From assembly GCF_003201285.1 (NCBI RefSeq), contig NZ_QICS01000007.1:62001-126000 (forward strand): a DNA stretch of 64,000 nucleotides. The letters run 5' to 3'. The DNA is from Lachnotalea glycerini (GTDB taxonomy: Bacteria; Bacillota; Clostridia; Lachnospirales; Lachnospiraceae). The notes beneath the pieces were generated by a model. The model ran no database searches. It was not told where the DNA came from and was given only the letters and a program-made list of their open reading frames with translations. Numbering within the stretch: position 1 is the first letter of the stretch; the number at the start of each line of letters is the position of its first letter. The translations under genes were made by a program, and so were the position numbers. Below, in pieces: positions 9,409-60,254 of this stretch.

Positions 9409-9504
9409 GCGGACAAGTTCTTTCCTATGAAAGGATAAAGTGAACAAGTCCGCATCCTGCGAAGCATTTTTATGTAATAGGACGCAATTTCTTATTACAT
9501 AAAA
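9409..9504. repeat. Dispersed intergenic repeat, copy A
   Basis: This interval shares blocks with the repeats at 11361, 45140, 50678 and 60092: TTTCCTATGAAA, CAAGTCCGCATC, GCATCCTG and ATGTAATAGGACGCAATTTC. It ends in a hairpin (TTTTTATGTAATA paired with TATTACATAAAAA, 9467-9505). The right end runs straight into the T-tract side of the dapAB terminator. No reading frame of useful length is present. With the galK promoter, this accounts for most of the 350-bp gap between galK and dapB. Confidence 0.75.
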
Positions 9505-9550
9505 AATAAGGGCTGTCGCGCTAACTGATTGCTAGTGCGACTCCCTTATT
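9501..9550 (-). terminator. Terminator of dapAB
   Basis: On the minus strand, AATAAGGG pairs with CCCTTATT and an inner GTCGC-type stem is added; the hairpin is followed by TTTTTTATG. It lies about 50 bp after the dapB stop. Confidence 0.8.
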
Positions 9551-9603
9551 CTGTTTCTATAAGCTATATTAATTTAATCAAGAGTTGTAGTGGATTTGAT
9601 AAT

Positions 9604-10359
9604 TTATCCTATCACGTCACTCATGTCATATAAGCCTGGCGCTTTTCCTGAAAGAAATTTAGCGGCCTCTACAGCTCCCTTTCCAAAAACAGCCTTTGAA
9701 TAAGCAGTATGCTTTATTTCAATTACTTCGTCTGTCCCTGCAAATAATACTTCATGCTCTCCAACAATGGTACCACCTCTAACGACACTGATACCGATTT
9801 CTTTCTTCTCGCGTTTCTTGCGCTCTAAACTTCTGTCATATATATATTCATATTCATTATCTAATACTTGATTGATGGAATCTGCCAAGGCAAGTGCTGT
9901 TCCACTTGGTGCATCAACTTTTTGATTATGATGCTTTTCAATGATTTCCACATCATATCCTGCTGGTACAAATACCTTAGTAGCATCTTGCAGAAGTTTT
10001 AGCAGTGTATTGACTCCCAAAGACATATTAGCTGATTTCAATATAGCCACTCTCTTACTGTCCTCTTGAATTCTCTTAAGTTGTTCCTCTGATAAACCCG
10101 TTGTGCATAGAACTACCGGTATGTTTTTTGATGTACTATAGTCTAATAGTGCATCTACCGCTTTTGATGATGCAAAATCAATCATTACATCCGCCTCAAT
10201 ATTGCATTTTGCTAAGCTATTAAATACCGGGTAGTCATTTTTTTGTTCCCCATTAATATCAATCCCCGCAACAATGGTACTAAACTCATCATTTTTAACA
10301 ATTTCTGAAATAACCTGACCCATATGTCCGTTACATCCGTGCATTATAATCTTTATCAT
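9604..10359 (-). CDS. dapB: 4-hydroxy-tetrahydrodipicolinate reductase
   Basis: Second committed step of the diaminopimelate/lysine pathway, NAD(P)H dependent. Seen: N-terminal dinucleotide-binding GCNGHMG (about 8-14), catalytic EKHHNQKVDAPSGTA (His-His and Lys), and C-terminal GLYDMSDVIG. The start is ATG 10359 (MIKIIMHG), with AGAGGT 6 bases upstream; the in-frame TTG at 10374 lies at the edge of this SD. It is downstream of dapA by 37 bp and shares the lysine-riboswitch-controlled transcript. Confidence 0.96.
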   Translation of the reverse strand: MIKIIMHGCNGHMGQVISEIVKNDEFSTIVAGIDINGEQKNDYPVFNSLAKCNIEADVMIDFASSKAVDALLDYSTSKNIPVVLCTTGLSEEQLKRIQEDSKRVAILKSANMSLGVNTLLKLLQDATKVFVPAGYDVEIIEKHHNQKVDAPSGTALALADSINQVLDNEYEYIYDRSLERKKREKKEIGISVVRGGTIVGEHEVLFAGTDEVIEIKHTAYSKAVFGKGAVEAAKFLSGKAPGLYDMSDVIG

Positions 10360-10396
10360 ATTATTACCTCTCAATTGTAGCTATATAAATTAAGCT

Positions 10397-11287
10397 TTAT
10401 GCTAATTTAAGACCAAACTCTCTCATTGCGTCAGCAAGTTTTTTAGCATGTGCTTCTTCCATTTCAGTTAATGGCATTCTTAATGGTCCAACTTTCATTC
10501 CCATCAGATTCATAGCCTTTTTTACAGGAATCGGATTTACTTCACAGAATAGCTGTTCGATTAAAGGTAATGCCTTGAGCTGCAATTTGCGACTTTTTTC
10601 TATCTTATTGTCAAGATACATAGCAACGATATCGTGAGTTTCCTGTGGTGCGATATTAGAAAGTACAGAAATAACGCCAAGCCCACCTAGGGATAATAAT
10701 GGAACAATTTGATCATCATTGCCTGAATATAAATCAATGTCTCCATTCGTAAGATGCATCAGTTTCGTTACTTGTGAAATATTTCCACTTGCTTCCTTAA
10801 TCGCAACAATATTATCTACTTCCTTTACAAGCTTAGCTGCTGTTTCTGGAAGAATATTACATCCTGTTCTGCTTGGAACGTTGTACATTACAATCGGTAT
10901 ATTAATATTCTTAGCAATTGTCGTATAATGAGCAATGAGACCATTTTGAGTAGCCTTGTTGTAATAAGGCGTTACGATTAATACTCCGTCTGCCCCGTGT
11001 TGCTGCGCTTCTTTTGAAAGATAAATTGCTGTATCAGTACAATTAGAGCCTGTTCCCGCAATAACCGGAACTCTTTTTTTAGTTCTGTCAACCGCCACCT
11101 TAATGCATTCTAAATGCTCTTCATGGGTAAGGGTGGAAGCTTCTCCTGTTGTCCCACAAATAACTATCGAATCTGTTCCATTGTCAATTTGAAAATCGAT
11201 AATCTCCTCTAATTTTTCGAAATTTACATCCCCATTATCTTTAAATGGTGTAATAATTGCTACACCTGCTCCTTTAAAAATAGCCAT
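10397..11287 (-). CDS. dapA: 4-hydroxy-tetrahydrodipicolinate synthase
   Basis: Class I aldolase-fold lyase condensing pyruvate with aspartate semialdehyde. Seen: GTTGEASTL (about 45-53), the tyrosine motif MYNVPSRTG (about 133-141), and the Schiff-base lysine in VAIKEASGN (about 161). At 296 aa it is of normal length. AAGGAGG precedes the ATG by 9 bases. The gene lies downstream of a lysine riboswitch and its terminator, with a dispersed repeat between the terminator and the gene. Confidence 0.97.
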   Translation of the reverse strand: MAIFKGAGVAIITPFKDNGDVNFEKLEEIIDFQIDNGTDSIVICGTTGEASTLTHEEHLECIKVAVDRTKKRVPVIAGTGSNCTDTAIYLSKEAQQHGADGVLIVTPYYNKATQNGLIAHYTTIAKNINIPIVMYNVPSRTGCNILPETAAKLVKEVDNIVAIKEASGNISQVTKLMHLTNGDIDLYSGNDDQIVPLLSLGGLGVISVLSNIAPQETHDIVAMYLDNKIEKSRKLQLKALPLIEQLFCEVNPIPVKKAMNLMGMKVGPLRMPLTEMEEAHAKKLADAMREFGLKLA

Positions 11288-11360
11288 GCCTAATATCCTC
11301 CTTAAATTAACCTATTCACTTAATTAATCTGGTAATATAGTCTATCCATTCAATAATATT

Positions 11361-11537
11361 TTTGTGCATCCTGCAAAAAACAAAGTGTCTCGCAGACACT
11401 CGCGCGCCCAAGTGGATTGCAAAGCAATGACATTCCTTTTTGCGAGATGCGCATTTTAACACGTAGTGCCTTTTATTTAATAGGAATCAAAGCTTTTATA
11501 CGTTACCATAACAAGGTCTTTCCTATGAAATAAAAAA
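11361..11537. repeat. Dispersed intergenic repeat, copy B (in dapA leader)
   Basis: It contains the family blocks GTGCATCCTGC (about 11363), TTTATACGTTACC...AACAAGGTCTTTCCTATGAAAT and the end inverted repeat TTTATTTAATAGGA against TCCTATGAAATAAA. The central part (GTGTCTCGCAGACAC and CGCGCGCCC) differs from other copies and holds its own small hairpin. Its right end is the T-tract of the riboswitch terminator. It lies in the transcribed dapA leader, so read-through mRNA should carry it. Confidence 0.75.
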
Positions 11538-11562
11538 AGAGCCGACGCGGTGCATCAGACTC
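11531..11562 (-). terminator. Expression-platform terminator of the lysine riboswitch
   Basis: On the minus strand, GAGTCTGATGC pairs with GCGTCGGCTC (10 bp, one bulged T, loop ACC) and is followed by TTTTTTTA. It lies directly after the lysine aptamer, so it is the likely attenuation point ahead of dapA. Confidence 0.85.
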
Positions 11563-11582
11563 CAAAAAGATTTCTTTTTCAG

Positions 11583-11775
11583 TACTTTCTTCCAGATAGC
11601 GCACCATCTTAAATTTAAGATGACAGTCATACAATTATTTATCGCATGCCCAGCAAAATATACACAGGATATATATTACTTCGGCGTTTTTCCCTTTCAA
11701 TTACCCTCCTCTATGCCTGACATATCAGATAATTTACTCATGTTAAACGCAACCTCTACCAAAGCAGTTTATTAC
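11583..11775 (-). ncRNA. Lysine riboswitch (L box) upstream of dapAB
   Basis: Read on the minus strand, the conserved L-box elements occur in order: GGTAGAGGTTGCG (11760-11748), GAGTAA, GCCGAAGTAA (11686-11677), GCTGGGC (about 11654-11648), CTGTCATC followed by a self-complementary helix (CATCTTAAATTTAAGATG), and GCGCTATCTGGA (11602-11591). These match the core of the lysine aptamer as known from B. subtilis lysC. A strong intrinsic terminator follows, so lysine binding should terminate transcription before dapA. Confidence 0.92.
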
Positions 11776-11798
11776 TGCTACCTTATTAAGTTGTTTTA

Positions 11799-11827
11799 AC
11801 TATAACATTATTCATATCGGCTGTCAA
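11799..11827 (-). promoter_or_regulatory. Sigma-A promoter of the riboswitch-dapAB transcript
   Basis: TTGACA (11827-11822) and TATAGT (11804-11799) with a 17-bp spacer on the minus strand; transcription should begin near 11792, about 30 bp ahead of the first aptamer core motif. Confidence 0.88.
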
Positions 11828-11978
11828 TAAGCATTTATGCATTGAATGCATAATTACCCATTTCTTGTAGTGATATTCTTAGTTTCATCCTTGATTTGGT
11901 TGAAAGTAAATGATATTATTATTCTAATGACAAAGTATTAAACAATATAATTTCGCATTTGCGAAAATGGAGGATATT

Positions 11979-13130
11979 ATGACAACAAATGAAAAAGCTT
12001 TACTTCTTCATGAAAAATGGAATGGCAAGCTTGAAACCGTATCGAAAACACCTGTCAAATCACGAGAAGACCTAAGTCTTGCTTACACCCCTGGTGTAGC
12101 GGAACCCTGTAAAGTGATTGCTAAGGATCGGGAGGCTGCCTACAAATATACTATCAAATCAAATATGGTAGCCGTCGTATCGGATGGAAGCGCGGTTTTG
12201 GGTCTTGGAAATATCGGTCCTTACGCTGCCATGCCGGTTATGGAGGGAAAGGCTGTATTGTTCAAAGAATTTGGTAATGTAAACGCATTTCCTATCTGTC
12301 TTGATACACAGGATACAGAAGAGATCATCAAGACTGTGGTAAACATCGCTCCTGCCTTTGGTGGAATCAATCTTGAGGATATCTCTGCTCCCCGCTGTTT
12401 TGAAATTGAAGAACGTCTAAATGATTTGCTCGATATTCCTGTCTTTCATGATGATCAACATGGTACTGCCATTGTAGTATTAGCTGGAATCATTAATGCT
12501 TTAAAGGTTACGGGTAAAAATAAGGAAACCTGTCGTGTGGTAGTAAATGGTGCTGGTTCTGCTGGTATTGCCATCACGAAGCTTTTATTGACCTATGGCT
12601 TTCAAAATATTACAATGTGTGACAAATGTGGTATGATATCAAAAGATACTATGGATTTAAATTGGATGCAGCAAAATATGACAGAAGTTACAAACCTTTC
12701 CAATCAGTCAGGAAGCTTAGCCGATGCATTAAAAGGTGCCGATATTTTTGTTGGAGTATCTGCTCCTAACATTGTAACTGCCGAGATGGTAACCTCTATG
12801 AATCAAGATGCAATCCTTTTTGCAATGGCCAATCCAATACCGGAGATTATGCCTGATATTGCAAAGGCTGCCGGTGCAAAAGTAGTTGGGACCGGACGTT
12901 CGGACTTTCCCAACCAGGTAAATAACGTAGTCGCTTTTCCTGGTATTTTCAAAGGCGCTTTAGAAGGTCGAGCTGAGAGAATTACAGAGGAAATGAAATT
13001 AGCTGCTGCGAATGCGATCGCTGGCTTAGTGTCTGATGAGAATTTAAACGAAGATAATATTATGCCGGAGGCATTTGATCCACGTGTTGCTGACGTAGTC
13101 AGTAAAGCCGTTAAGGATCATATTAAATAA
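11979..13130 (+). CDS. NAD(P)-dependent malic enzyme (malate to pyruvate)
   Basis: Oxidative decarboxylation of malate to pyruvate and CO2. Seen: YTPGVAEPC (about 37-45), the malic-enzyme signature region GSAVLGLGNIGPYAAMPVME with KAVLFKEF, the metal site FEIEERL...PVFHDDQHGTA, and the nucleotide-binding NGAGSAGIA. The short (about 383 aa) bacterial form lacks extra C-terminal domains. The start at 11979 is chosen because GGAGG lies 5 bases upstream; the ATG at 11967 overlaps that SD. Cofactor preference cannot be read. The radical-SAM gene begins 2 bp after its stop. Confidence 0.93.
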   Translation: MTTNEKALLLHEKWNGKLETVSKTPVKSREDLSLAYTPGVAEPCKVIAKDREAAYKYTIKSNMVAVVSDGSAVLGLGNIGPYAAMPVMEGKAVLFKEFGNVNAFPICLDTQDTEEIIKTVVNIAPAFGGINLEDISAPRCFEIEERLNDLLDIPVFHDDQHGTAIVVLAGIINALKVTGKNKETCRVVVNGAGSAGIAITKLLLTYGFQNITMCDKCGMISKDTMDLNWMQQNMTEVTNLSNQSGSLADALKGADIFVGVSAPNIVTAEMVTSMNQDAILFAMANPIPEIMPDIAKAAGAKVVGTGRSDFPNQVNNVVAFPGIFKGALEGRAERITEEMKLAAANAIAGLVSDENLNEDNIMPEAFDPRVADVVSKAVKDHIK

Positions 13131-13132
13131 TT

Positions 13133-14062
13133 ATGTTCAAGAATCAGGCATGGAACGAAAAACGGTATTTCTCATTGGACAGCTATTTAAAGAATACTTA
13201 CGGCGAGAAGATATATAAGCTGTCGCTAAATGGAGGTATGACTTGCCCCAACCGTGATGGTACGCTTGGAAACAATGGTTGCATTTTTTGCAGCGAGGGC
13301 GGTTCAGGGGATTTTGCAGCCAACCCTCTTCTTTCCATAACTGAGCAAATAGAAGAGGCAAAGGACTTGGTTAAGAGTAAGACGACTAGTCGAAGATTTA
13401 TAGCTTACTTTCAGGCTTATACAAATACCTATGCACCAATTGAATATCTTCGTAAAATATTTTATGAAGCCATTTTTCATCCTGATATTGCTATTTTATC
13501 AATTGCTACAAGACCAGATTGCCTCAGTGATAATATTTTATTGCTTTTAGGCGAGCTCAATTGTATAAAGCCAGTTTGGATTGAACTGGGACTTCAAACA
13601 ATACACGAAAAAAGTGCCCAATTAATAAGACGCGGCTATCCTTTATTCTGCTTAGAAGAAGCCGTTTTCAGACTGACTTCACTTCATATTAATGTAATTA
13701 TTCATATTATATTGGGTCTTCCAAATGAAAGCTTTGAAGATATGCTTAAGACGGCTGATTACATTAGTAAATTACCAATTGGCGGAATTAAACTTCAATT
13801 ACTTCATGTATTAAAAAATACCGATTTAGCTGACCTGTATTTTAATACAAATTTTCATATTTTATCTTTAGAAGAATATACTGATATAGTAATTAAAATT
13901 TTGGAACGTCTTCCTTCTGATATAGTAGTTCATCGAATTACAGGAGATGGTCCAAAAAATCTTTTAATAGAACCCTTGTGGAGCGCTGATAAAAAGCGAG
14001 TTTTAAATACTATTCACAAAGAATTTCGCTTAAGAGACACCTGGCAGGGTAAGCTTACATAA
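13133..14062 (+). CDS. Radical SAM protein, YhcC/TIGR01212 family
   Basis: A 309-aa radical SAM enzyme. The cluster motif is the family-specific CPNRDGTLGNNGCIFC (about 38-53, C-x11-C-x2-C) rather than the plain CxxxCxxC, followed by EGGSGDF. GLQT and HIILGLPNES match the conserved YhcC blocks. The reaction is not established for the family. It begins 2 bp after the malic enzyme stop, with only a weak SD (AAGGA, 14 bases away), suggesting translational coupling. Confidence 0.88.
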   Translation: MFKNQAWNEKRYFSLDSYLKNTYGEKIYKLSLNGGMTCPNRDGTLGNNGCIFCSEGGSGDFAANPLLSITEQIEEAKDLVKSKTTSRRFIAYFQAYTNTYAPIEYLRKIFYEAIFHPDIAILSIATRPDCLSDNILLLLGELNCIKPVWIELGLQTIHEKSAQLIRRGYPLFCLEEAVFRLTSLHINVIIHIILGLPNESFEDMLKTADYISKLPIGGIKLQLLHVLKNTDLADLYFNTNFHILSLEEYTDIVIKILERLPSDIVVHRITGDGPKNLLIEPLWSADKKRVLNTIHKEFRLRDTWQGKLT

Positions 14063-14100
14063 TCTGCCACAATGCAGTCATGATATAGGAGGTATAATAG

Positions 14101-14616
14101 ATGTCTGAACCACTAACACTTTACAAATTGATAGTTTTATATATGCTTGATAAGGTTAGCTTTCCGCTTACTGAGGCTCAAATAACAGATTTTATATTAG
14201 GAAAAGAATACACGACTTATTTTTCTCTCAGACAAGCAATTTCAGAACTTATTGATGCCGACCTAATTAAAGTTGAATCTTTTCGAAACAGTTCACATTA
14301 TCATATAACTGAAGAAGGAACGAATACACTGGAGTACTTTGGAAATAAGATTTCTGCATCTATCGTAGCTGACATTGATGAATTTTTGACTACCAATCAA
14401 TATTCTTTGCTTGATGAAGTCTCAACTACTGCTGACTATTATAAAACCACAAACAATGATTATGCAGTTGAATGCAAGGTGAAAGAAAAGAATTACGATT
14501 TAATCAGCCTGACTCTTACTGTTCCTACTAAAGAGCAGGCCAATTCAATATGCAATAACTGGAAAAACGAAAGTCAAGAAGTTTATGCTTATCTTATGGA
14601 TAAGCTGATGAGATAA
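14101..14616 (+). CDS. DUF4364 family protein
   Basis: A 171-aa protein that matches the DUF4364 family of Clostridia: the N-terminal half looks like a winged helix (LYKLIVLYMLDKVSFPLTEAQ, then LRQAISELIDADLI and HYHITEEGTNTLEYF, about 8-80), and a second half of beta-rich sequence of unknown role follows. A DNA-binding function is inferred from the wing-like half only. AGGAGG lies 8 bases before the ATG. It is the last gene of the plus-strand run starting with malic enzyme. Confidence 0.8.
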   Translation: MSEPLTLYKLIVLYMLDKVSFPLTEAQITDFILGKEYTTYFSLRQAISELIDADLIKVESFRNSSHYHITEEGTNTLEYFGNKISASIVADIDEFLTTNQYSLLDEVSTTADYYKTTNNDYAVECKVKEKNYDLISLTLTVPTKEQANSICNNWKNESQEVYAYLMDKLMR

Positions 14617-14642
14617 CAGGCAGAAGCAAACGCTTCTGCCTG
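14617..14642. terminator. Convergent terminator DUF4364 / rarA
   Basis: An 11-bp perfect stem (CAGGCAGAAGC against GCTTCTGCCTG) with loop AAAC immediately follows the DUF4364 stop and precedes the rarA stop by 11 bp. The T-tract is short on both sides. Confidence 0.75.
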
Positions 14643-14653
14643 TTATTTAGAAT

Positions 14654-15973
14654 CTATTCTTTTCTGATTTTTTTCATATGCTCTGTAATCTGTTTCTCAT
14701 AGCCATTCAAGGTTGGTTGGTAAAATACCATATCTTCTAATCCATCCGGTAAATATTGCTGTTTTACATAGTTATCTGGAAAATTATGAGCATACTGATA
14801 TCCATCTCCGTGCCCTAGCTTTGACGCTCCTTTATAATGAGCATCCTGCAAATGCTTTGGTATAGAGGCTGTTTTTGTTGCCTCCATAATCCCATAAGCC
14901 TTATCTATTGCTGTTATAGCCGCATTGCTCTTTGGTGCTGTTGCAATATAGGTAACTGCTTGTGCAAGAATGATTCTTGCTTCCGGCATACCAATACGCT
15001 CTGCCGCCTGTGAGGCGGCTACTGCTACACATAAAGCATTGGGGTCTGCATTGCCTACATCTTCTGATGCACATATCATAATTCTTCTGGCTATAAACGT
15101 GATACTTTCTCCTGCATACAACATTCTTGACAGATAATAAACGGCGGCATCCGGGTCTGATCCTCTCATACTTTTAATGAAAGCTGAAATAGTATCGTAG
15201 TGATTATCTCCCGATTTATCATATCGGACTACTCTTTTTTGAATACATTCCTCTGCTACCTCAAGTGTAATACGAATTTTACCATTTGAAGATTTCTCTG
15301 TAGTAAGAACTGCCAATTCAATCGCATTTAACGCACTTCTGGCATCCCCATTCGATATATCTGCCAAAAACTCTTTGGCATCCTCATCAATTTCTGCGTC
15401 ATAAGCTCCCATTCCTCTTTCGCTGTCATATACGGCTCTTTCTATGAGCTTACTAATATCCGCTTTTGCAAGGGATTTTAATTCGAATACAATAGACCGT
15501 GATAGTAAAGCAGAATTAACCTCAAAATAAGGATTTTCTGTTGTGGCGCCAATTAAAATAAGAGTGCCGTCTTCCACAAATGGTAACAAATAGTCCTGCT
15601 GTCCTTTATTAAATCTATGAATCTCGTCCACGAACAGAATCGTCTTTTTACCATACATACCAAGATTATTCTTAGCCTGGTCCACTACAAGCTCCATATC
15701 CTTTTTTCCTGCTACAGTAGCGTTAATTTGCGTAAATTCGGCACTAGTTGTATTTGCAATTACCTTTGCTATTGTAGTCTTACCTGTTCCAGGAGGACCA
15801 TAAAATATTATTGAACTTAGTTTATCCGCTTTGATGGCCCGATAAAGCAGTTTATCCTTACCTATGATATGCTGCTGTCCAACAATCTCCTCTAGCTTTG
15901 ATGGCCTTAATCTGGCAGCAAGCGGTGACTCCTTTTGCAGCGTATTGTTTCTCATATAATCAAATAAATCCAT
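14654..15973 (-). CDS. rarA: Replication-associated recombination protein A (AAA+ ATPase)
   Basis: RarA/MgsA acts at stalled replication forks. Seen: the N-terminal PLAARLRPS and EEIVGQQHII, Walker A GPPGTGKTTIAK (about 59-70), Walker B LFVDEIHRF (about 112-120), sensor 1 IGATTENPYFEVN, and the C-terminal tetramer domain (RMLYAGESITFIARR...ASEDVG). At 439 aa it is full length. AAGGAG lies 7 bases before the ATG. It begins 31 bp after the polysaccharide deacetylase gene. Confidence 0.96.
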   Translation of the reverse strand: MDLFDYMRNNTLQKESPLAARLRPSKLEEIVGQQHIIGKDKLLYRAIKADKLSSIIFYGPPGTGKTTIAKVIANTTSAEFTQINATVAGKKDMELVVDQAKNNLGMYGKKTILFVDEIHRFNKGQQDYLLPFVEDGTLILIGATTENPYFEVNSALLSRSIVFELKSLAKADISKLIERAVYDSERGMGAYDAEIDEDAKEFLADISNGDARSALNAIELAVLTTEKSSNGKIRITLEVAEECIQKRVVRYDKSGDNHYDTISAFIKSMRGSDPDAAVYYLSRMLYAGESITFIARRIMICASEDVGNADPNALCVAVAASQAAERIGMPEARIILAQAVTYIATAPKSNAAITAIDKAYGIMEATKTASIPKHLQDAHYKGASKLGHGDGYQYAHNFPDNYVKQQYLPDGLEDMVFYQPTLNGYEKQITEHMKKIRKE

Positions 15974-16004
15974 TTGTCTTCTCCTTAAAATAAGCCTTTT
16001 GTTA

Positions 16005-16694
16005 TTATAATATCATTTCCTCTACTGTTACAAACTCAAAGCCTTCACTTTGCAGTATATCTACAATCTTTAAAGCAGCAATAACTGACGTCTTATAATA
16101 ATCATGCATTAATATGATATCACCATCTTTAATATCCTTTGTTCCATTTCTAACAATTTTCTCTACATTTTCTGTTGTCCAATCAAGTGTATCCACATTC
16201 CATAACACCGGTATCATATCTAAATTACATTCCAGATTCTTATCCCATTCACCAAACGCAGGTCGAATAAATTCCGGATATTCACCCGTTATTTTATATA
16301 ATACTTCATTCGCTTTTACAATTTCTTCACATTGTTCCTTCAGGCTGATGATATTTAATTGAACATGATTGTATGTATGATTCCCAATAAGATGACCGTC
16401 ATGATATATATTTTTCACAACCTCCGGACATTGTTCCGCATTTTTACCAATTACAAAAAAGGTTGCTTTTACATTTCTCTCCTTTAGCCCATCTAATAAC
16501 TGCTGCGTATAAATCGGATGAGGACCATCATCAAAGGTTATTGCAATTTTTTTAGATTCATCCTTGCTTTTCGAGATTTCACTCTGCGTTTGTGTCACTA
16601 AATTCTGATTTTTGTTCCATGTAGTACTGACAGCAATCAATAATATGAATAAAGAGATATCAATCAATAAAAGAATACAGCATTTTAGTTTCAT
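16005..16694 (-). CDS. Membrane-anchored polysaccharide deacetylase (NodB fold)
   Basis: A 229-aa protein with one N-terminal membrane segment (about 4-22) and an extracellular NodB domain. Motif 1 TFDDGPH (about 53-59), motif 2 HTYNH (metal His pair), motif 3 RPAFGEWD (usually RPPYG), motif 4 DTLDW and motif 5 LMHD are all present, so it should be an active metal-dependent deacetylase acting on peptidoglycan or another glycan; the substrate cannot be told. The SD is weak (AAGGC). rarA follows in the same direction. Confidence 0.88.
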   Translation of the reverse strand: MKLKCCILLLIDISLFILLIAVSTTWNKNQNLVTQTQSEISKSKDESKKIAITFDDGPHPIYTQQLLDGLKERNVKATFFVIGKNAEQCPEVVKNIYHDGHLIGNHTYNHVQLNIISLKEQCEEIVKANEVLYKITGEYPEFIRPAFGEWDKNLECNLDMIPVLWNVDTLDWTTENVEKIVRNGTKDIKDGDIILMHDYYKTSVIAALKIVDILQSEGFEFVTVEEMIL

Positions 16695-16756
16695 AATACA
16701 AGCCTTTTCTTAATTATTTCTATATTAATATATGTAGAATTAAATCATTTAATCAC

Positions 16757-16790
16757 ATAAAGCCCTAAACGAACTTGTTCAGGGCTTTAT
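16757..16790 (-). terminator. Terminator overlapping the DUF4250 stop
   Basis: AAAGCCCT pairs with AGGGCTTT, with a nested GAAC/GTTC stem. The stem includes the last codons and stop of the DUF4250 gene and is followed by TTTATG on the minus strand. Confidence 0.7.
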
Positions 16791-16938: not shown

Positions 16939-16957
16939 AACTGCCTCTTTCTGATTT

Positions 16958-18213: not shown

Positions 18214-18262
18214 ATCTAAATACTTATTAATGAAAATACAGCCTTTACATTAATCCTTTACA

Positions 18263-45076: not shown

Positions 45077-45139
45077 GGTTCGTTCATTAAATATATGTAT
45101 GCTTCATTCTTTTACTATAATAATAGTTTAGAGCAAAGA

Positions 45140-45312
45140 AACAAGTCCGCATCAGCTCCCTAATCCCTCAATCATGATGGACTTGACCGCTTTGCCGCGC
45201 CAAATGCGATTATGCAGTGACAGTTTCCACTTGCATTCGTGCACATTGTGTTTTTATTTCATAGGATTCAAAACTTTTATACGTTAACAACAAGGTCTTT
45301 CCTATGAAACAA
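45140..45312. repeat. Dispersed intergenic repeat, copy C
   Basis: The left half (CAAGTCCGCATC, ACTTGACCGCTTTGCCGCG, TTATGCAGTGACA, CACTTGCATTCGTGC) matches the left half of copy E at 60092, and the right half (TTTCATAGGATTC...ACTTTTATACGTTA...ACAAGGTCTTTCCTATGAAAC) matches copies B and D, so this is the fullest copy. The end arms TTTCATAGGA and TCCTATGAAA are inverted. It accounts for most of the 346-bp gap between bioY and the MBL gene; it contains no credible gene. Confidence 0.8.
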
Positions 45313-45359
45313 GAAATAAAGTACCTGAGTCTCTATGGAGTAAGGGACTCAGGTACTTT
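45311..45359 (-). terminator. Terminator of the MBL-fold gene
   Basis: AAAGTACCTGAGTC pairs perfectly (14 bp) with GACTCAGGTACTTT; on the minus strand TTTATTTCTTGTTT follows. It may also stop bioY transcription from the other side. Confidence 0.85.
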
Positions 45360-50531: not shown

Positions 50532-50677
50532 GATTTCCTCCTGTTATAATTGCATATATTCCATCAATACGATCATCGTATATGTTTTACCAATCGCAAA
50601 TACTGTTCGGGTAAATTATACCATAGAGTTTTCAATATCACTATTTATAATTACAATTTAATTATAAAAATATAAAT

Positions 50678-50742
50678 ATTTCATAGGAATCAATACTTTT
50701 ATACATTACCACAACAAGGTCTTTCCTATGAAATAAAAAAAA
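50678..50742. repeat. Dispersed intergenic repeat, copy D (short form)
   Basis: The shortest clear copy: TTTCATAGGAATC, ACTTTTATACATTACC, ACAACAAGGTC, TTTCCTATGAAAT. Its ends pair (TTTCATAGGA/TCCTATGAAA). It corresponds to the right half of copies B and C and runs directly into the T-tract of the terminator at 50744. Confidence 0.8.
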
Positions 50743-51710: not shown

Positions 51711-51727
51711 AAATAGGCTATAACAGA

Positions 51728-51758: not shown

Positions 51759-51781
51759 CTGTTGTTTCATACTCCTATCTT

Positions 51782-52850: not shown

Positions 52851-55800
52851 ATGTTATCCAATGAATTAAAACTACCAAACTATTATGAAGATCCTTCTTC
52901 ACTTCACATAGGATGTGAAGACAATCGAAGCTACTATATTCCTTTTACTTTGGAAAACACAAACGAAAGTTCAAGAATCCTTACATTAAATGGTAACTGG
53001 GATTTTCGATATTATGAGAATCCATATGTTTTAGAGGATTTTACAAAGTTAGGCTATTCCTATAAAAACTATGATTCTATTCCAGTTCCCGGATGTATTC
53101 AAATGTATGGTTATGACCATCACCATTACACGAATATCCCTTTCCCATTTGCATATGATGCTCCTTATGTACCTCAGCAGAACCCAACCTGCGTTTATCA
53201 TAAAAGCTTCGATATAACAGAGGAAAATTGTAATTATTTACAATATTTAAATTTTGAGGGTGTAGATTCCTGCTTTTATGTCTATGTCAATCAAACTTTC
53301 GTAGGCTACAGTCAGGTTTCGCACTCTACGAGTGAATTTAATATCACTCCTTATATTAGACTTGGGCAAAATGACCTTACTGTCGTAGTATTAAAGTGGT
53401 GTGATGGAAGTTATTTAGAGGATCAAGATAAGTTTCGTATGACCGGAATTTTTAGAGATGTTTATGTGCTCCACCGTCCAAAGGAGCATATTCGTGACTT
53501 TTTTATTAAAACTCGGTTAAATAATATTTACAAAAATGCGCAAATTGAAATCAAATTCAATTATCGCAGTGTCTCTGTGCCAACCACCTGTACCTTATTT
53601 GATACAAAGGATCAAATTATTTCTACCAAGACTGTGCAGGATGCTATGTTAGCCTTTGAACTTGAAAATCCAACTCTTTGGAATGCAGAAGAACCTTATC
53701 TTTACACTCTCAAAATTGAAACTCCGGATGAGATTATTTATCAAAAGATAGGTATTCGCTGCATCGAAATCAAGAACGATATCATTTATATTAATGGTGT
53801 AAAGATTAAATTCAAAGGTGTAAACCGCCATGACAGTGATCCTGTAACAGGCTATACTATAAGCAGAGAGCAAGTATTAAAAGATTTAACAATGATGAAA
53901 GAATCCAATATCAATGCTATTCGAACCAGCCACTATCCAAATGCTCCTTGGTTTACTCAGCTTTGCAATGAATACGGCTTTTATGTCATAAGTGAAAGTG
54001 ATTTAGAGGCACATGGAGCTACTCAATTCTATGGTGGAAGCTCCTTTGATACTTTCGGAGATTTGGTTCAAAAAGAAATTTTTGCAAAGTCCATTTTAGA
54101 CCGTAACCAAAGAAATGTAATTCGTGACAAGAATAATCCTTGTATTATCATGTGGTCCATGGGAAATGAGGCTGGCTATAGCAAGGCTTTTGAAGATACA
54201 GGTCGTTTTATCAAGGCCTACGATTCAACCAGGCTGCTTCATTATGAAGGAAGTATTCATGAAACGGGTGGTCATAAAAACGATACCTCTATGCTAGATG
54301 TATATAGTAAAATGTATGAGCCAATTTCTGGAATTGAAAATTATCTGGCTACAAATCCAAAACCTTATATGCTTTGTGAATTTATCCATTCCATGGGTAA
54401 CGGTCCGGGAGATATTGAGGATTATTTTGAATGTATTTACAAGCATGACCGCTTTGTTGGTGGTTTTGTATGGGAATGGTGTGACCATGCGATCTATCGT
54501 GGTATCACTACAAATGGCAAGAATATCTTCCACTATGGCGGCGATTCTAATGAATTCCCGCATGATGGCAATTTCTGCGTGGATGGAATGGTAAGTCCTG
54601 ACCGTGTCCCTCACCCTGCCTTGGCAGAGTATAAAAATGTTATAAGACCCGTCAGAGCTTTCTTATTGGACGCTGCAACTGGAAAAATCAAATTGCAGAA
54701 TATGCTGGATTTTACGAATTTGAAAGATTATGTAAACTTACAGGCACAGCTTCTCTATGACGGTGAAGTCGTTGAAACCTACGAGTTAGGAACCGTTGAT
54801 GTAAAGCCACATGAGACAACTGTTTTAAATATCACAATAAATCAAGCGTACTTTAAACAGACAAAAAGCTTGAGCCTGAAAATAAATTATGTGCAAATCT
54901 TTGATAAACCACTTACAAAAGCAGGGCATTTACTTGGCTTTGATCAACTTATGCTAAAAGAGCATAATAGACCATTGGTACATGCCAAAGATTATCATCA
55001 GGAAAGTATACAGACCGAAGAAAACTCTTCTTTGATATTACTAAAGGGAACTAATTTCAGATATGTATTTAATAAAATGCAAGCAAGCTTTGATTCTCTG
55101 ACTATAGATAATTGTAATATAATAGAAAAGCCTCTGGAATATAATATCTGGCGTGCTCCTACTGACAATGACAGCACAATCCGCAACGAATGGGAATCTG
55201 CTGGTTATAACAGAGCTCTTGTCAGAGTATACGAAACTACTTTGACAAACAAAAATAATGTTGTTAAAATAAGCTGCCGATTTGCTATCAATGCCATTCA
55301 AATCCAGCATATCTTGGATTTAAATGTGACTTGGACCATTGGCAGCAATGGTACAATTACGCTCGATTTAGATGGAAAACGTAATACTGCCCTGCCATTT
55401 CTTCCTAGACTTGGTCTGCGTTTATTCTTACCTAAGGAATACAATGCTGTAGAATATTTAGGCTACGGTCCAAATGAAAGCTACGTCGACAAGCACCGTT
55501 CATCATGGTTTGGTAGGTTTAAGTCAAATGTAGAAAATATGTATGTGGATTATATTAAGCCACAAGAAAATTCAAGTCACTTTCATTGTGAGGAGGTGAT
55601 TTTATCCTCCTCAACAGGAAAGAACATTCATGTAAATGCTGCTGCTCCATTTTCTTTCCAAACCAGCCGGTATACGCAAGAGGAACTAGCAAGTAAAGCA
55701 CACAATTATGAACTTTTGCAATCAGAACATACTGTTTTATGTCTTGATTACAAAATGAGCGGAATTGGCTCCAATTCCTGCGGTCCTGCATTGGCGAATC

Positions 55801-55853
55801 AATATCAGCTAAGGGAAGAACATTTATCTTTCCAAATGACCTTACAGTTCTAG
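52851..55853 (+). CDS. lacZ: Beta-galactosidase, GH2 (LacZ type)
   Basis: A 1000-aa GH2 enzyme hydrolysing terminal beta-galactosides. Domains: sugar-binding jelly-roll, Ig-like, TIM barrel, second Ig-like and C-terminal beta sandwich, all in the long LacZ arrangement. Seen: GVNRHDSDP (about 323-331), acid/base Glu in MWSMGNEAGY (about 439), nucleophile Glu in MLCEFIHSMGNGPG (about 510), GGFVWEWCDHA. No signal peptide, so it acts in the cytoplasm on imported galactosides. SD AAAGGGG. No permease gene is adjacent. Confidence 0.96.
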   Translation: MLSNELKLPNYYEDPSSLHIGCEDNRSYYIPFTLENTNESSRILTLNGNWDFRYYENPYVLEDFTKLGYSYKNYDSIPVPGCIQMYGYDHHHYTNIPFPFAYDAPYVPQQNPTCVYHKSFDITEENCNYLQYLNFEGVDSCFYVYVNQTFVGYSQVSHSTSEFNITPYIRLGQNDLTVVVLKWCDGSYLEDQDKFRMTGIFRDVYVLHRPKEHIRDFFIKTRLNNIYKNAQIEIKFNYRSVSVPTTCTLFDTKDQIISTKTVQDAMLAFELENPTLWNAEEPYLYTLKIETPDEIIYQKIGIRCIEIKNDIIYINGVKIKFKGVNRHDSDPVTGYTISREQVLKDLTMMKESNINAIRTSHYPNAPWFTQLCNEYGFYVISESDLEAHGATQFYGGSSFDTFGDLVQKEIFAKSILDRNQRNVIRDKNNPCIIMWSMGNEAGYSKAFEDTGRFIKAYDSTRLLHYEGSIHETGGHKNDTSMLDVYSKMYEPISGIENYLATNPKPYMLCEFIHSMGNGPGDIEDYFECIYKHDRFVGGFVWEWCDHAIYRGITTNGKNIFHYGGDSNEFPHDGNFCVDGMVSPDRVPHPALAEYKNVIRPVRAFLLDAATGKIKLQNMLDFTNLKDYVNLQAQLLYDGEVVETYELGTVDVKPHETTVLNITINQAYFKQTKSLSLKINYVQIFDKPLTKAGHLLGFDQLMLKEHNRPLVHAKDYHQESIQTEENSSLILLKGTNFRYVFNKMQASFDSLTIDNCNIIEKPLEYNIWRAPTDNDSTIRNEWESAGYNRALVRVYETTLTNKNNVVKISCRFAINAIQIQHILDLNVTWTIGSNGTITLDLDGKRNTALPFLPRLGLRLFLPKEYNAVEYLGYGPNESYVDKHRSSWFGRFKSNVENMYVDYIKPQENSSHFHCEEVILSSSTGKNIHVNAAAPFSFQTSRYTQEELASKAHNYELLQSEHTVLCLDYKMSGIGSNSCGPALANQYQLREEHLSFQMTLQF

Positions 55854-56017
55854 CTATAAAGAACCTAGCGCTTGAGTAACTTGCTTGCTTTGTTGGATTG
55901 AATCCAGACACTCTTGGGAAATGCATTTGTGAAGCAATTACTTCCTTTTTTGCATCTTAGCGATACCATGATAAGTTTAAATATCAGGAAATTCAAAGAA
56001 ATTTATTAGTATAAAGG

Positions 56018-56055
56018 TGAATGGGTTTCAGTCTTTTGATACCCATTCATTTTTT
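56018..56055 (+). terminator. Terminator of lacZ overlapping the end of dus
   Basis: GAATGGGT pairs with ACCCATTC and is followed by ATTTTTTAA on the plus strand; the stem includes the stop codon and last residues of the convergent dus gene. Confidence 0.75.
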
Positions 56056-56987
56056 AATTCCTGCTCTTGAAACAAACGAGAAACTGCATCTTCATAGTCA
56101 CTTAGTTTTTGTGATTTCTTAATCTTTTTGGTGTACTTTTCGTTGTCTGTAAATATAGTAATCATATAAAACCATAATTCTTTCATCTTGAATAAAACAT
56201 TCCTATCACCAGATAAAATCTCCTGATAATCGAAATATATTTTATCATGAAATTGCTTTAATACATTTTTATCCAATCTGTTATTGGCGGTTATTTCATG
56301 TACTAAAGCCGGATTAGCTAATAATCCTCTTCCAATCATAATGGTGTCTAAATTATGAAATCTTTGTTGTAAATCACAATAATCCTTCACCTTACAAATA
56401 TCTCCATTATAGCAAACAGGATTCGTACTATTGTTTAAGGCATATTCAAAAATGGCAAGGTTTGGCTTATTTTGATAGAAATCTTGTTGTAATCTGGGAT
56501 GAATAATCAATTCTTTAATAGGATATTTATTATATATATCTAATAGCTCATAAAATTCCTCTTCATTTTCTATTCCAATTCTGGTTTTTATTGATATTTC
56601 TGAAATGAAGCTTGTAAAGATTTCTTCTAAAAACTCATCCAGCTCCTTTGTCTTTTCCAAGAAACCAGAACCACGATTTTTAGTGACAACCGTTTTCGAA
56701 GGACATCCTAAGTTTAGATTGATTTCCTTATAACCTAACGCTTTCAATTTCTTTGAGGTATGAATAAAATCTTTCGCACGATTCGTTAAAATTTGTGGAA
56801 CGACACTGATCCCTTCATTATGCTCTGGTAAAAGATCATTTAGCTCACGAGCCTTAAAGCTTTCGCTTTGATTCGCCTGAATAAATGGTGCGAAATACTT
56901 ATTAATTTTTGAGTTGAAAAATGTATTATGGGCATTTCGATAAATGTATCCAGTCAGCCCCTCCATAGGTGCAAAGTAAAAGTTCAT
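56028..56987 (-). CDS. tRNA-dihydrouridine synthase family protein
   Basis: A 319-aa FMN-dependent enzyme: APMEGLTGYIYR at the N-terminus, INLNLGCPSK (about 92-101, catalytic Cys in GCP), KTRIG, ELIIHPR and YNGDI, then IGRGLLANP. These are the Dus/FMN barrel blocks. The divergence from DusB (no NRxxxHFFR block seen) suggests the DusC-like or clostridial branch, so the position modified is unknown. AAGGAG lies before the ATG. Single gene. Confidence 0.9.
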   Translation of the reverse strand: MNFYFAPMEGLTGYIYRNAHNTFFNSKINKYFAPFIQANQSESFKARELNDLLPEHNEGISVVPQILTNRAKDFIHTSKKLKALGYKEINLNLGCPSKTVVTKNRGSGFLEKTKELDEFLEEIFTSFISEISIKTRIGIENEEEFYELLDIYNKYPIKELIIHPRLQQDFYQNKPNLAIFEYALNNSTNPVCYNGDICKVKDYCDLQQRFHNLDTIMIGRGLLANPALVHEITANNRLDKNVLKQFHDKIYFDYQEILSGDRNVLFKMKELWFYMITIFTDNEKYTKKIKKSQKLSDYEDAVSRLFQEQELKNEWVSKD

Positions 56988-57072
56988 TGCTTTTTCTCCT
57001 TAATTTAAGTAATTCAAATTATAACACTTCTTTTTTGTGAATACTAATAAAAGTTACTATATAAGCTAAAAC

Positions 57073-57121
57073 AAAACAGTTGTTGACATATGCTCTTAAC
57101 TGTTTTATCATATTATATGAT
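57073..57121 (+). promoter_or_regulatory. Promoter of nifX-like gene with two dyads
   Basis: TTGACA (57083-57088), 17-bp spacer, TATCAT (57106-57111). One inverted repeat, AAAACAGTT (57073-57081) with AACTGTTTT (57098-57106), brackets the -35. A second, ATCATAT-T-ATATGAT (57107-57121), covers the -10. Both are good operator candidates; the neighbouring DUF134 protein is the obvious but unproven ligand. Confidence 0.6.
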
Positions 57122-57179
57122 AATCAAATATATTTTGATGCTACATAAATATAACTAACAAGTAAAAGGAGAATAGAAC

Positions 57180-57536
57180 ATGAAAATTGCTTTACCTACA
57201 CATCAGGATTTGATCGACAGTCATTTTGGACACTGTGAATACTTTACTGTATTTACAACAGAGGGAAGAGAGATAGCTGACCAGCAAATTGTCGACTCTC
57301 CAGAGGGCTGCGGCTGCAAATCTAATATTGCACAGACCCTAGCTTCAATGGGTGTTACAGTAATGTTAGCTGGTAATATGGGAGATGGTGCAGTAAATGT
57401 GCTAAATAGCTGCGGTATCGAAGTTGTACGCGGTTGTTCCGGAAATGTTAAGGAAGTTGCCCTTGCTTGGCTTGCTGGTTCTGTTACTGATTCAGGCGAC
57501 TCTTGTCATGAACATGAGCACGGCTGCGAGCATTAA
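57180..57536 (+). CDS. NifX/NifB-family Fe-Mo cofactor-binding-like protein
   Basis: A 118-aa protein of the dinitrogenase iron-molybdenum cofactor biosynthesis family (PF02579): MKIALPTHQ, DSHFGHCEYFTVF, ADQQIVDSPEGCGCKSN, VMLAGNMGDGAVNVL and CGIEVVRGCSGNVKEV. The C-terminus is His/Cys-rich (CHEHEHGCEH). No nitrogenase genes are present, so it probably handles an Fe-S or metal cluster in another setting, as commonly seen in anaerobes. SD AAAAGGAG. Convergent with DUF134. Confidence 0.9.
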   Translation: MKIALPTHQDLIDSHFGHCEYFTVFTTEGREIADQQIVDSPEGCGCKSNIAQTLASMGVTVMLAGNMGDGAVNVLNSCGIEVVRGCSGNVKEVALAWLAGSVTDSGDSCHEHEHGCEH

Positions 57537-57567
57537 ATTTTTGACAATTATCACCAATAATGGGTAT

Positions 57568-57619
57568 CTGTGTGTAAAGTACCTTTCCCCTAACGAGTGA
57601 TGGGGTACTTTACACACAG
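57568..57619. other. Long perfect hairpin between nifX-like and DUF134 genes
   Basis: CTGTGTGTAAAGTACC (57568-57583) and its exact complement GGTACTTTACACACAG (57604-57619) form a 16-bp stem with a 20-base loop. Neither side has a T-tract, so this is not a standard intrinsic terminator; it may still stop or protect both convergent mRNAs. Confidence 0.7.
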
Positions 57620-57654
57620 AAAACACTATGAAACACTTTATTATTTCGCCTTAT

Positions 57655-58131
57655 TTAGAAATCACTATTATCATACCGCCAACAATTCTTTCTGCAGAAT
57701 TTTCCTTTACAATTTTCTTTACATAAAACCTTATCCGATCCGCATTCTGGACATATATATTGACCATTTTTTATTACTTCCAAATTTTCATAGCTTTCTT
57801 TCCACTCTTTACCACAGCTCATGCAGTGAATTGGACATATATTACGTGTAAAATTACCGCCTTCGATATGAACCATTTTCCCATTTATAAGACAATCTGC
57901 AATTTTTTCTCTAGCTGACAATAATATCCTTTGAAAAGTCGGTCTTGATACTTCCATGCGCTGTGCACAATCCGTTTGTTCAAGACCTTCTAAATCCTTT
58001 AAACGTATTGCCTCCAATTCCTCTAGTTTGAGTATATTCTCCGGTAATTCTGCTATTTCCTTTTCAGACGGTATAAAATAAGGTATTGCTGGTATATAAT
58101 CAATTTTTCTCAATTTTGTTGGTCTTGCCAT
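57655..58131 (-). CDS. DUF134 family HTH/zinc-binding protein
   Basis: A 158-aa protein: ARPTKLRKI opening, a sigma-70-region-4-like helix-turn-helix (LEELEAIRLKDLEGLEQTDC, then VSRPTFQRILLSAREKIADC; about 35-80), and C-terminal Cys-rich clusters (CPIHCMSCG, CPECG, CKENCKGKFCRKNC). This is DUF134, usually found beside NifX-like proteins as here. I infer a redox- or metal-sensing regulator of the nifX-like gene. SD GAGGAG. Confidence 0.9.
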   Translation of the reverse strand: MARPTKLRKIDYIPAIPYFIPSEKEIAELPENILKLEELEAIRLKDLEGLEQTDCAQRMEVSRPTFQRILLSAREKIADCLINGKMVHIEGGNFTRNICPIHCMSCGKEWKESYENLEVIKNGQYICPECGSDKVLCKENCKGKFCRKNCWRYDNSDF

Positions 58132-58146
58132 ATTTACTCCTCATCT

Positions 58147-58174
58147 ATTGTATCATATTGAAAGCTTGACTCAA
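58147..58174 (-). promoter_or_regulatory. Promoter of DUF134 gene
   Basis: TTGAGT (58174-58169) and TACAAT (58152-58147), 16-bp spacer on the minus strand. TTGTATGATTGA and TCAATATGATACAA around it form an imperfect dyad. Confidence 0.6.
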
Positions 58175-58292
58175 TCATACAATTTATCCCTATCTTCTTT
58201 AATTTAACATTTGATAATTATATATCATTTTAACGAGTTTCCTCAGCTTTTGCAATATCTTTATTTTATTATTGATTTTATTTCCACCTAAT

Positions 58293-58323
58293 AAGGGTAA
58301 TGTCTCCAATCAACATTACCCTT
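58293..58323. terminator. Terminator of the chemoreceptor gene
   Basis: AAGGGTAATGT pairs perfectly with ACATTACCCTT (11 bp); TTATT follows on the minus strand and TTATTT on the plus. It is 29 bp after the chemoreceptor stop. Confidence 0.75.
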
Positions 58324-58351
58324 TTATTTACGCTTATTTTATTATTATGTT

Positions 58352-59398
58352 CTAATTATCACTTGCCATTGTATACAATTCATTGGTCAATGCTAATACC
58401 TCTTCCACGCTTGCCGTTGTTTCCTCAATACCAGCTGACTGCTGCTCTGCATTTTCCATTGTTGAGTTAGAAATATCCAGAGTCTTATTAACAGAGTTTT
58501 GAATTTCTCTTGTTAGGTTCACTATGTCCATAGCAGTTTCCTTAGAATTTTGTGAAAGATTTCTAATCTCTGTAGCAACAACTGAAAAACCTCTGCCATG
58601 CTCTCCTGCTCTTGCTGCCTCTATCGCTGCATTCAATCCAAGCATTTTTGTTTGATCAGCTATGTTTTTAATTGATTCTAATATTGTATTAATCTGATTG
58701 GATCTTTCACTTACATTTTGAATTTCCTTATTCAGTAAAATCTGATTTTCATTCACACTTACAGAGGATGCTGCAAGCTCTTGCATCGTTGCGGAAATCT
58801 GAGTAAAGCTTTCTAATAAATCTGAGCTCATATTTTTCAATTTCATCTTTTGATAACCAATTTGTGATAATGAATTTGCAATTAGAAATAAAACTTCAGC
58901 AGCTGACTTAAGCTTTGCTTCTGTCGTTATCTGCACTTCTTTAGCCGCTTCAAAATATTGCTCTTCATCAACTCCTATTTCTCTTGCTGTTTTTTTAAAT
59001 TCATCTGATTTTGGCTGAGATGTCAGAATCTGCCCTCCTAAAATCGTACCAATTTGTACTCCATTTATCATAATTGGAGCTGCAAAATCAATCAAACCAG
59101 CGTGACATTTGTAAATGTAAGGCTTTCCTGCTTTCGCTGCCTCTTCTCCTCCTCTTTTATGAGAAACTGCACATCTGTCATCACCAATTTTAGTAGAATG
59201 AATAAATTTATCACAAATTTTTGTATAGGAACTTGGCTTGGTTAGTGGATTGCCGTCCATATCAACAGCTACACTGGCTATCCCCATACTTTCTGCGAAA
59301 TTATCTAAAAATTTCTGTAATGTATTAAGGTCAATTACATCCATCACCTTGACATTTGATAAATCATCGTTATTCTTACTTTCTGTTCTGCTATTCAT
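58352..59398 (-). CDS. Soluble chemoreceptor with PocR domain
   Basis: A 348-aa methyl-accepting-type protein with no membrane segment. N-terminal PocR ligand domain (about 20-170: [50 protein letters not shown], with Cys residues). The signalling half is short, with the hairpin tip [22 protein letters not shown] (split; about 270-290), and ends after the adaptation helix at LYTMASDN. PocR domains bind small diols or hydrocarbon derivatives. It should be a cytoplasmic sensor; no other chemotaxis genes are in the window. GGAGG lies 8 bases before the ATG. Confidence 0.9.
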
Positions 59399-59579
59399 TT
59401 TGAATCCTCCAACTTTCGTATAATAAAGCTAAATCTATATTTCTTTCTGTAAATCTTTATAAATTCAGCTAAGCTTTAATACTAAAATAGTAGCACAAAA
59501 ATCTTTTGTTTTTATTAAAAAAATATTAAATAACTTATAAGAAATTACGTGATTTTCCTATTAAACAAGTATGTTTTTC

Positions 59580-60026
59580 CTATTTATAATCCTTACCTAT
59601 CCCCCAATTTTCAAGCTGATCATAATCTGTATTTGGCGCTTCGAAATTTACAATGATTGGCGCATTATCAAGTTCAGGATGTGCCGCAAATAATTCTCTA
59701 TCACCATATCTTATTGCTTCTAATGCTAGTGGCAGTTCACGGCGAAAAACTTCATTTCGCACAGATGTTATGATAGGATTATATTCTCCTCCAACCAAAA
59801 CTGATACAAACAATATTGTCTCCTCCTTATTTGTTCTCCATTCAGCAAGTACTTCATCCCTCATGCTTGTAATTTTTTCATATGCATATTCCAGTCCTAT
59901 TGATAAGTACAACTCGGCTGTCTGATCGGAATGAGTCACAGTATACTTACGTCCTATAATAGGCTCAGTCTTTGTAACATCTGGGGAAAATTCTACAGTC
60001 AGCTTTTTAGGATCCAGTCTTTCCAT
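59580..60026 (-). CDS. Stay-Green (SGR) family protein
   Basis: A 148-aa protein whose opening LDPKKLTVEFSPDVT, RKYTVTHSDQTAELYLSIG (about 26-44) and RDEVLAEW (about 56-63) are the blocks of the Stay-Green/chlorophyll Mg-dechelatase family (PF12638), here in its short bacterial form. His32 and Asp34 of THSD are in place; these positions are needed for activity in a characterised bacterial SGR as I recall. The physiological substrate in a non-photosynthetic anaerobe is unknown. AGAGGT precedes the ATG. It stands alone. Confidence 0.82.
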   Translation of the reverse strand: MERLDPKKLTVEFSPDVTKTEPIIGRKYTVTHSDQTAELYLSIGLEYAYEKITSMRDEVLAEWRTNKEETILFVSVLVGGEYNPIITSVRNEVFRRELPLALEAIRYGDRELFAAHPELDNAPIIVNFEAPNTDYDQLENWGIGKDYK

Positions 60027-60091
60027 ATATAAACCTCTATAAACATGTTTTAATATTTGTCTTTATAATATATGCAGACTTTTTCTATTTG

Positions 60092-60254
60092 CTTCATACT
60101 TTTATACGTTAGCTTCCTAATTCCTCACTCATGAGAGACTTGACCGCTTTGCCGCGTCGAATGCTGTTATGCAGTGACATTTTTCACTTGCATTCGTGCG
60201 CATCCTGTGGAGTATTTAAATGTAATAGGACGCAATTTCCCTATTACATAAAAA
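60092..60254. repeat. Dispersed intergenic repeat, copy E
   Basis: Blocks in order: CATACTTTTATACGTTAGC, CTTGACCGCTTTGCCGCG, TTATGCAGTGACA, CACTTGCATTCGTGCGCATC, then ATGTAATAGGACGCAATTTC with the pairing end CTATTACATAAAAA. The left part matches copy C and the right end matches copy A, so it links the two types of copy. It fills most of the gap between the SGR and symporter genes. Confidence 0.8.

Follow-up and report, generated by a model that had tools for sequence, protein, structure and literature searches.

Short non-coding elements behind intrinsic terminators in Lachnotalea glycerini: a probable mobile family with one-ended truncation

What are the short repeats that recur directly behind transcription terminators in a 64,000-nucleotide stretch of Lachnotalea glycerini DNA (contig NZ_QICS01000007.1, positions 62,001 to 126,000 of the forward strand; hereafter the window), and how might they have come to stand there? 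The initial annotation of the window described five copies and left two alternatives side by side, namely a short non-coding mobile element that targets terminators and a structured RNA element that travels with them. The first of these proves to be the better half. The element is present across the genome in more than 100 whole or partial non-coding copies, nearly always with the same end at a transcript stop signal, and it is very probably both mobile and targeted to terminators. We read it as a non-autonomous mobile element family, inserted right behind the T-tracts of intrinsic terminators in the terminator's direction, and assign this reading a probability of roughly 0.6.

Terminators as the target

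In the 4.86-Mb host genome, a pattern for the core of the element (up to two mismatches) is found at 91 places, a body pattern at 81, a tail pattern at 48 and an alternative-head pattern at 15, with a reversed-pattern control of 0 in each case; the core, body and alternative-head places combine into 124 clusters. These genome-wide searches thus place many further copies outside the window, as the initial annotation had anticipated. A profile of about 181 nt (181 positions), run on 356,603 bases chosen around the pattern hits, gave 152 hits, or 131 after removal of 21 opposite-strand overlaps; copies with none of the search patterns escape this count, and some tail places (e.g. C1:345816 and C6:197188) lie outside the profiled bases. 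No open reading frame (ORF) was noticed within the element. At the Rfam gathering threshold the element itself has no match, the only matches being to the lysine riboswitch, T-boxes, one tRNA and introns, and the intron domains have none on the element loci L014 and L016 or in the window, intron matches being confined to introns. At E<=0.5 there are two weak matches far below their cut-offs, one of mir-471 over a head (L058; 28.1 of 80 bits) and one of Atu_C9 beside a head (L042; 22.8 of 40 bits). Our literature search, with most subscription papers outside its reach, found no description of this element family.

The placement of the copies relative to terminators is non-random, as had likewise been proposed. 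Ninety-one copies begin at model position 1-3 and have 60 bases of sequence upstream; in 88 of them, T makes up at least 5 of the 8 bases that precede the element, compared to 2073 of 20000 random positions (a background of about 10%). Position by position, T occupies -7 to -2 in 71-85 of the 91 copies, and A stands at -1 in 56. A crude hairpin-plus-T scorer passes 65 of the 91; its pass counts are 59 of 4000 at random positions and 575 of 5564 at T-rich positions that lie outside elements. On reading, many of the 26 failures stand behind a hairpin with a long loop or behind another copy's tail. In 30 of the 54 testable copies (the remaining 37 being without 900 bases of flank), the 200 bases upstream contain the end of a same-strand gene of 80 or more codons, while the corresponding counts are 8 of 54 for the other strand and 329 of 2000 for random positions. 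Genes are not the only sequences that end there: at five of nine chosen loci, Rfam detects an attenuator ahead of the element, in the form of a T-box (L130, L181, L139 and L082) or the lysine riboswitch (L015), with no match at the other four, and T-box matches just below the gathering score precede the element at L274 and L058. Because such attenuators carry the element, the target is likely to be the hairpin with its T-tract rather than the gene end. The insertion site, directly behind a terminator stem-loop and T-tract, is of the kind seen in group IIC-like targeting.

Modular anatomy, truncation and spread

Read in the terminator's direction, the terminator stem is followed by about 6 T and a single base, in most cases A. 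The head then begins, TTTCATAGGA - loop - TCCTATGAAA; behind it come a T, an A-tract and a body that forms further hairpins, and the element closes with a tail, GCGGACTTGTCCGC plus TTTGTT, that is itself terminator-like. The canonical head is a hairpin beginning TTTCATAGGA, and substitute heads occur in its place: a second one, TATGTAATAGGA..TCCTATTACATA, is joined to the same body, and a third, around TATATCATAGGAAA, sits on the same body in the genome G001 of the same genus. Since the head (TTTCATAGGA...) and the tail (GCGGACTTGTCCGCTTTGTT) differ in sequence, there are no shared terminal inverted repeats of the kind that an IS-derived miniature inverted-repeat transposable element (MITE) has; with regard to a target-site duplication, the T-tract flanks the element on the left and a near-constant TTTGTT on the right. 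At L274, L276, L279 and other places, the tail is followed by additional hairpins, whose arms are ATAGGAAA, and by bodies of other kinds (ATGCGCACCTCGCGGAGG...), so that the family has more head and body types than those modelled.

The 13 G001 heads pair 11.0 of 14 positions with their own arms, compared to 8.57 on average, and 10.08 at most, after re-pairing (2000 shuffles). As these arms pair better with their own partner than with others, the head hairpin appears to be maintained despite changes in its letters. The body shows little covariation (term -0.02; two-sided change in 5 of 25 pairs). Folding is strong on both strands (z -5.7 and -6.2), with the folded stretch taking in the neighbouring terminator, which contributes to it. 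The A-tract behind the head complements the T-tract in general and not copy by copy. In the own genome, copy-specific pairing between T-tract and A-tract (38 of 62; expectation 36.3) is not supported, in other genomes it is weak (19 of 39 against 13.3 expected; p 0.024), and the idea that the arms are copied from the target was dropped.

The two ends of the element behave differently. Of the 131 profile hits, 95 start within model positions 1-10; of the 36 that do not, 25 start at 21-50, which is where copies with another head join the model, and only 5 at 60 or later. At the right, 63 hits reach 171-181 and 68 are spread over 21-170; for the 91 head-bearing copies, the right end falls before 150 in 52, at 150-169 in 4 and at 170 or beyond in 35. 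A tail-like end lies within 60 bases of just 4 of the 52 copies that end before 150 (2 of 52 in a shifted control), and hence the short copies are not mainly internal deletions. Neither are truncated copies more diverged in the head than longer ones: mismatches in the first 18 bases average 1.15 in the truncated (n=52) and 1.69 in the long copies (n=35), a Mann-Whitney comparison over 21 bases gives p 0.51, and of the 17 copies that stop short of position 60, 8 are free of mismatches over 18 bases. Over the aligned columns, truncated copies have an identity of 0.917 (n=52), slightly below the 0.937 of the longer copies (n=39). The copies therefore combine one fixed end with continuous truncation of the other, as do short interspersed nuclear elements (SINEs), and they may have been truncated at birth.

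Copies also occur in succession. A head core with at most one mismatch is found within 18 nt downstream of 20 of the 57 complete tails (control 3 of 228), or of 30 of 57 if two mismatches are allowed (control 31 of 228). Some of these successions are tandem arrays of near-identical copies; for three arrays, within which the copies are 97.8-99.4% identical, local duplication seems more likely than repeated insertion. Chimeras occur as well, for example the window copy at 60092, in which a head-loop piece replaces the tail.

Beyond the host, the exact 19-base core is present in 54 stretches of the genome collection, from 18 assemblies as told by accession prefix. Two of these, titled Burkholderiales and Desulfosporosinus, have the core without a T-tract and look like chance matches, while the other 16 are titled Lachnospiraceae, Roseburia, Eubacterium, Clostridiales or 'Candidatus Scybalomonas'. 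Fifteen of the 16 have one or more places where T fills at least 5 of the 8 upstream bases, and the remaining one (CAMWLJ) has 4 T at both of its places. Counting the two chance matches, 55 places have sufficient sequence upstream; 48 of them reach 5 T in 8, and the hairpin scorer accepts 36. In these other assemblies, the head stays constant as the body varies by species, and 16 of 52 core places break off inside the head. With one mismatch allowed, the core is found in 2 of 116 genomes, the own genome included, and in neither of two same-genus genomes; G001 has at least 28 body matches, with another head in the 13 that were read. The exact 19-mer was absent from viral contigs, and a 221-base query matched nothing in the phage and plasmid collections. 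Two sites were compared with the same genus, where the element was not found, the main genes matching at 66-76% DNA identity and the intergenic DNA being unalignable. Presence among genomes is patchy.

The copies in the window

All five copies reported in the window exist, each adjoining the T-tract of a minus-strand terminator, and they are modular as described. Their presence stands, and their boundaries and make-up are revised here: on the minus strand the left ends lie at ~9501, 11530, 45309, 50733 and ~60250 (the first and last by reading), and earlier ends such as 11537 fall inside the T-tract. The crude scorer passes copies 3, 4 and 5 as well as a sixth; copies 1 and 2 score 0, and their terminators, read by eye, have hairpins that are long-looped or run into the T-tract.

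Copy 1 (9409..9501, minus strand, as are all features below; pattern matches at C7:71473-71499 and C7:71415-71432, plus reading) was previously taken as a single unit and reads as a chain of two reduced ones behind the dapB terminator (9505..9550, by reading; dapB by TIGR00036). It comprises an alternative-head hairpin at ~9472-9501, a jump to a tail, and then a second head at ~9414-9432 with a tail. Copy 2 (11361..11530; profile match C7:73403-73530) joins a canonical head to a second body type. It is borne by the attenuator terminator of the lysine riboswitch, whose aptamer lies at 11589..11766 (RF00168), and is followed by dapA (TIGR00674). As copy 2 separates the riboswitch from dapA (window 11287-11589), read-through transcripts must cross it. 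Copy 3 (45139..45309; profile and fold) is canonical and nearly full-length (model 1-173 of 181). Its target is the terminator hairpin of an MBL-fold gene (45318..45359; sequence reading and fold), the protein of which has its best NCBIfam match to ComEC/Rec2, below the cut-off of that model. Copy 4 (50677..50733; profile) is a head hairpin only, right-truncated (model 2-57). Among the neighbours, dapB, the lysine riboswitch, the MBL gene and AgcS were named correctly, and what had been called a 58-aa gene behind copy 4 is an ORF of 63 aa when counted from the longest ATG start. Copy 5 is an alternative-head element behind the agcS terminator (60108..60256; model 15-161; left end ~60250; profile and reading), to which a canonical head-loop piece foreign to it is fused in the tail's place (60092..60107; sequence reading). 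A weaker sixth copy had been placed at 61871. There is indeed a head-like stretch at 61886..61909 behind a good terminator hairpin (score 28.5), and as the profile does not recover it at E<=1, we regard it, by reading and terminator score, as a probable degenerate head-only copy.

Mechanism, rival explanations and known systems

The fixed left end at the T-tract, the continuous loss of right ends without excess head divergence and the preference for T-tracts would all follow from target-primed copying from the 3' end of an RNA. A one-ended insertion that begins with the left end appears rather probable: this end would be joined first to the T-tract, and copying would then proceed rightward until it stops. 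In the simplest chemistry, the 3'-ending T-tract would prime the copying of an opposite-strand RNA, as in long interspersed nuclear elements (LINEs) and SINEs; the element RNA would run against the terminator's direction, with the head hairpin, ...CCTATGAAA, as its 3' end. We propose a reverse transcriptase as the enzyme only tentatively; group IIC introns, whose docking sites are the same terminators, may be its source. The full scenario is a bacterial counterpart of SINEs, wherein a structured RNA with a 3'-terminal hairpin is recognised by a reverse transcriptase and target-primed into T-tracts, leaving truncated copies, and wherein the head is a transferable mobility signal joined to different bodies in different Lachnospiraceae; this we consider a speculation with the odds against it.

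Several points weigh against such a history of insertion. No mobilising gene was identified, and RVT_1 had no match in 11 of the 19 other genomes searched, including G116, which has 20 exact cores, and G002, which is 99% complete (completeness is unstated for most of the 19, and many are metagenome-assembled genomes). An RNA from either strand is hypothetical. No empty site was seen at the two sites compared, where the same-genus intergenic DNA is too diverged for an exact boundary. With a median pairwise identity of 0.863 among 43 long copies, the copies are not very young, and selection on heads, or deletions that spare terminators, could leave the same pattern of kept heads and lost tails. 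As for an autonomous long form (head - gene - tail), reading of the element-locus stretches brought up just intron-bearing heads.

Those heads raise the possibility that the element was derived from intron X or is mobilised as a part of it. Intron X is a multi-copy intron of group IIC type that lies inside element heads between ATAGGA and AA; the assembly breaks at this intron and does not contain it in full, its contig-end loci in G000 being L325, L333, L344, L312, L324 and L190-L192. Its left junction in a head is clear at the C22 end and the C20 start and nearly so at the C9 start (2 of 3 clear), and its right junction is found at C4, C25, C22 and C7 and not at the C20 end (4 of 5). C4 and C25 carry the same interrupted head variant (97.6% identity; next best 89.8% and 90.5%), which suggests that the interrupted element moved or was duplicated as a whole, and group IIC introns, too, are reported to target terminators (PMC4424553). 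Nevertheless, the DNA of the intron 5' end is found in 0 of 19 other genomes (with no positive control within that search), the element has no Rfam group II match, and it begins 10 nt left of the intron site; for the latter two reasons the intron looks like a guest of the element, and we consider an origin from it improbable. RVT_1 occurs at three places in the own genome, one intact and two broken, which we take to be group II introns from the Rfam hits at the same loci. By reading, reduced, ORF-less or broken group II introns also lie behind plain terminators (L189:3950-4350, L198, L200 and L194), the remnant at L200 being almost just its two ends, and L189:3093-3592 holds an intergenic tandem array of 5.5 copies of a 91-bp unit (98% match).

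A Y1 (HUH) transposase of the IS200/IS605 kind could instead move the element by single-stranded DNA transposition, with the hairpins as its ends and the A-tract reading the T-tract target. Insertion in one direction and hairpin ends fit such a route, and Y1_Tnp genes are present in the own genome (2), G001 (8) and G002 (2, one partial). Moreover, the resident IS200/IS605-type insertion sequence (IS) shares the site type: in 6 of 7 displayed copies (L294, L296, L297, L298, L300 and L301, from the own genome and G001) the transposon starts directly behind a terminator T-tract, L295 being the exception, and an IS-like right end lies directly ahead of an element head at L296 (G001) and at L054. 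However, by eye the ends of this transposon have no sequence in common with head or tail (other transposase families were not searched), no Y1_Tnp gene is found in G003 (74% complete), and 48 of the 52 copies that end before 150 are without a nearby tail, which a two-ended cut-and-join would not produce; we thus hold this route to be about as improbable as derivation from the intron. Least probable is a structured RNA part that does not move but is kept by selection and inherited together with terminators, for instance as a module for mRNA 3' ends or read-through. The strong folding of both strands, neighbouring terminator included, and the copy-specific arm pairing of the G001 heads agree with it, and the structured shape foreseen in the initial annotation stands. 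As an explanation it falls short, however, as patchy presence, head swapping and truncation are left unexplained: the element was not found at two syntenic same-genus sites, the same body occurs under swapped heads between species, the genes are unrelated, there are tandem arrays and chimeras, and many copies are without a body. Hence, we prefer a mobile element inserted at terminators.

If this reading is correct, a widespread mobile family, unmatched in Rfam, lands on terminators, those of riboswitch and T-box attenuators included, and may have reshaped mRNA 3' ends and leaders in gut-type bacteria. Its one-ended truncation makes bacterial SINE-like retroposons a directly testable question, and the same sites also harbour other mobile DNA, namely an intron of group IIC type and a transposon of IS200 type. 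In eukaryotic SINE/LINE retroposition, copies have one fixed end, the other being continuously truncated, and a T-rich target; the present element differs in being bacterial, in having a hairpin 3' end instead of a tail signal, and in that no partner was identified. The IS200/IS605 elements and their PATE derivatives have hairpin ends and insert in one direction. The resident IS uses the same kind of site as our element, but no ends in common were noticed by eye, and the element copies are truncated at one end. YPAL of Yersinia is presumably often inserted at terminator-like sequences behind genes, with target duplications, and to our knowledge shows no exchange of heads and bodies. It is described as a short intergenic palindromic repeat with many copies and a 168-nt model (PMC2847712, PMC2267715), and resembles the element in size and copy number, differing in sequence and lineage. 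BOX, RUP and SPRITE of Streptococcus pneumoniae are modular or structured non-autonomous repeats, clustered and nested, with one BOX adjoining T-box leaders (PMC3049150, PMC10969869). In the accessible portions of those papers, terminal inverted repeats are described for BOX and RUP and a possible IS partner for BOX, unlike in our element without shared terminal inverted repeats, and a fixed T-tract junction like that of the element is not mentioned for the three. Group IIC introns are reported to insert at terminators, behind the stem-loop, and at attC sites (PMC4424553, PMC3898094). The element likewise lands behind the terminator stem-loop, but these introns are ribozymes with a reverse transcriptase, whereas the element has no Rfam intron domains and no noticed ORF; the group IIC-type intron of this genome uses the element head as its landing site. 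Set against YPAL, BOX and the group IIC introns by their descriptions, we call the family a terminator-associated miniature element with an unusual one-ended truncation.

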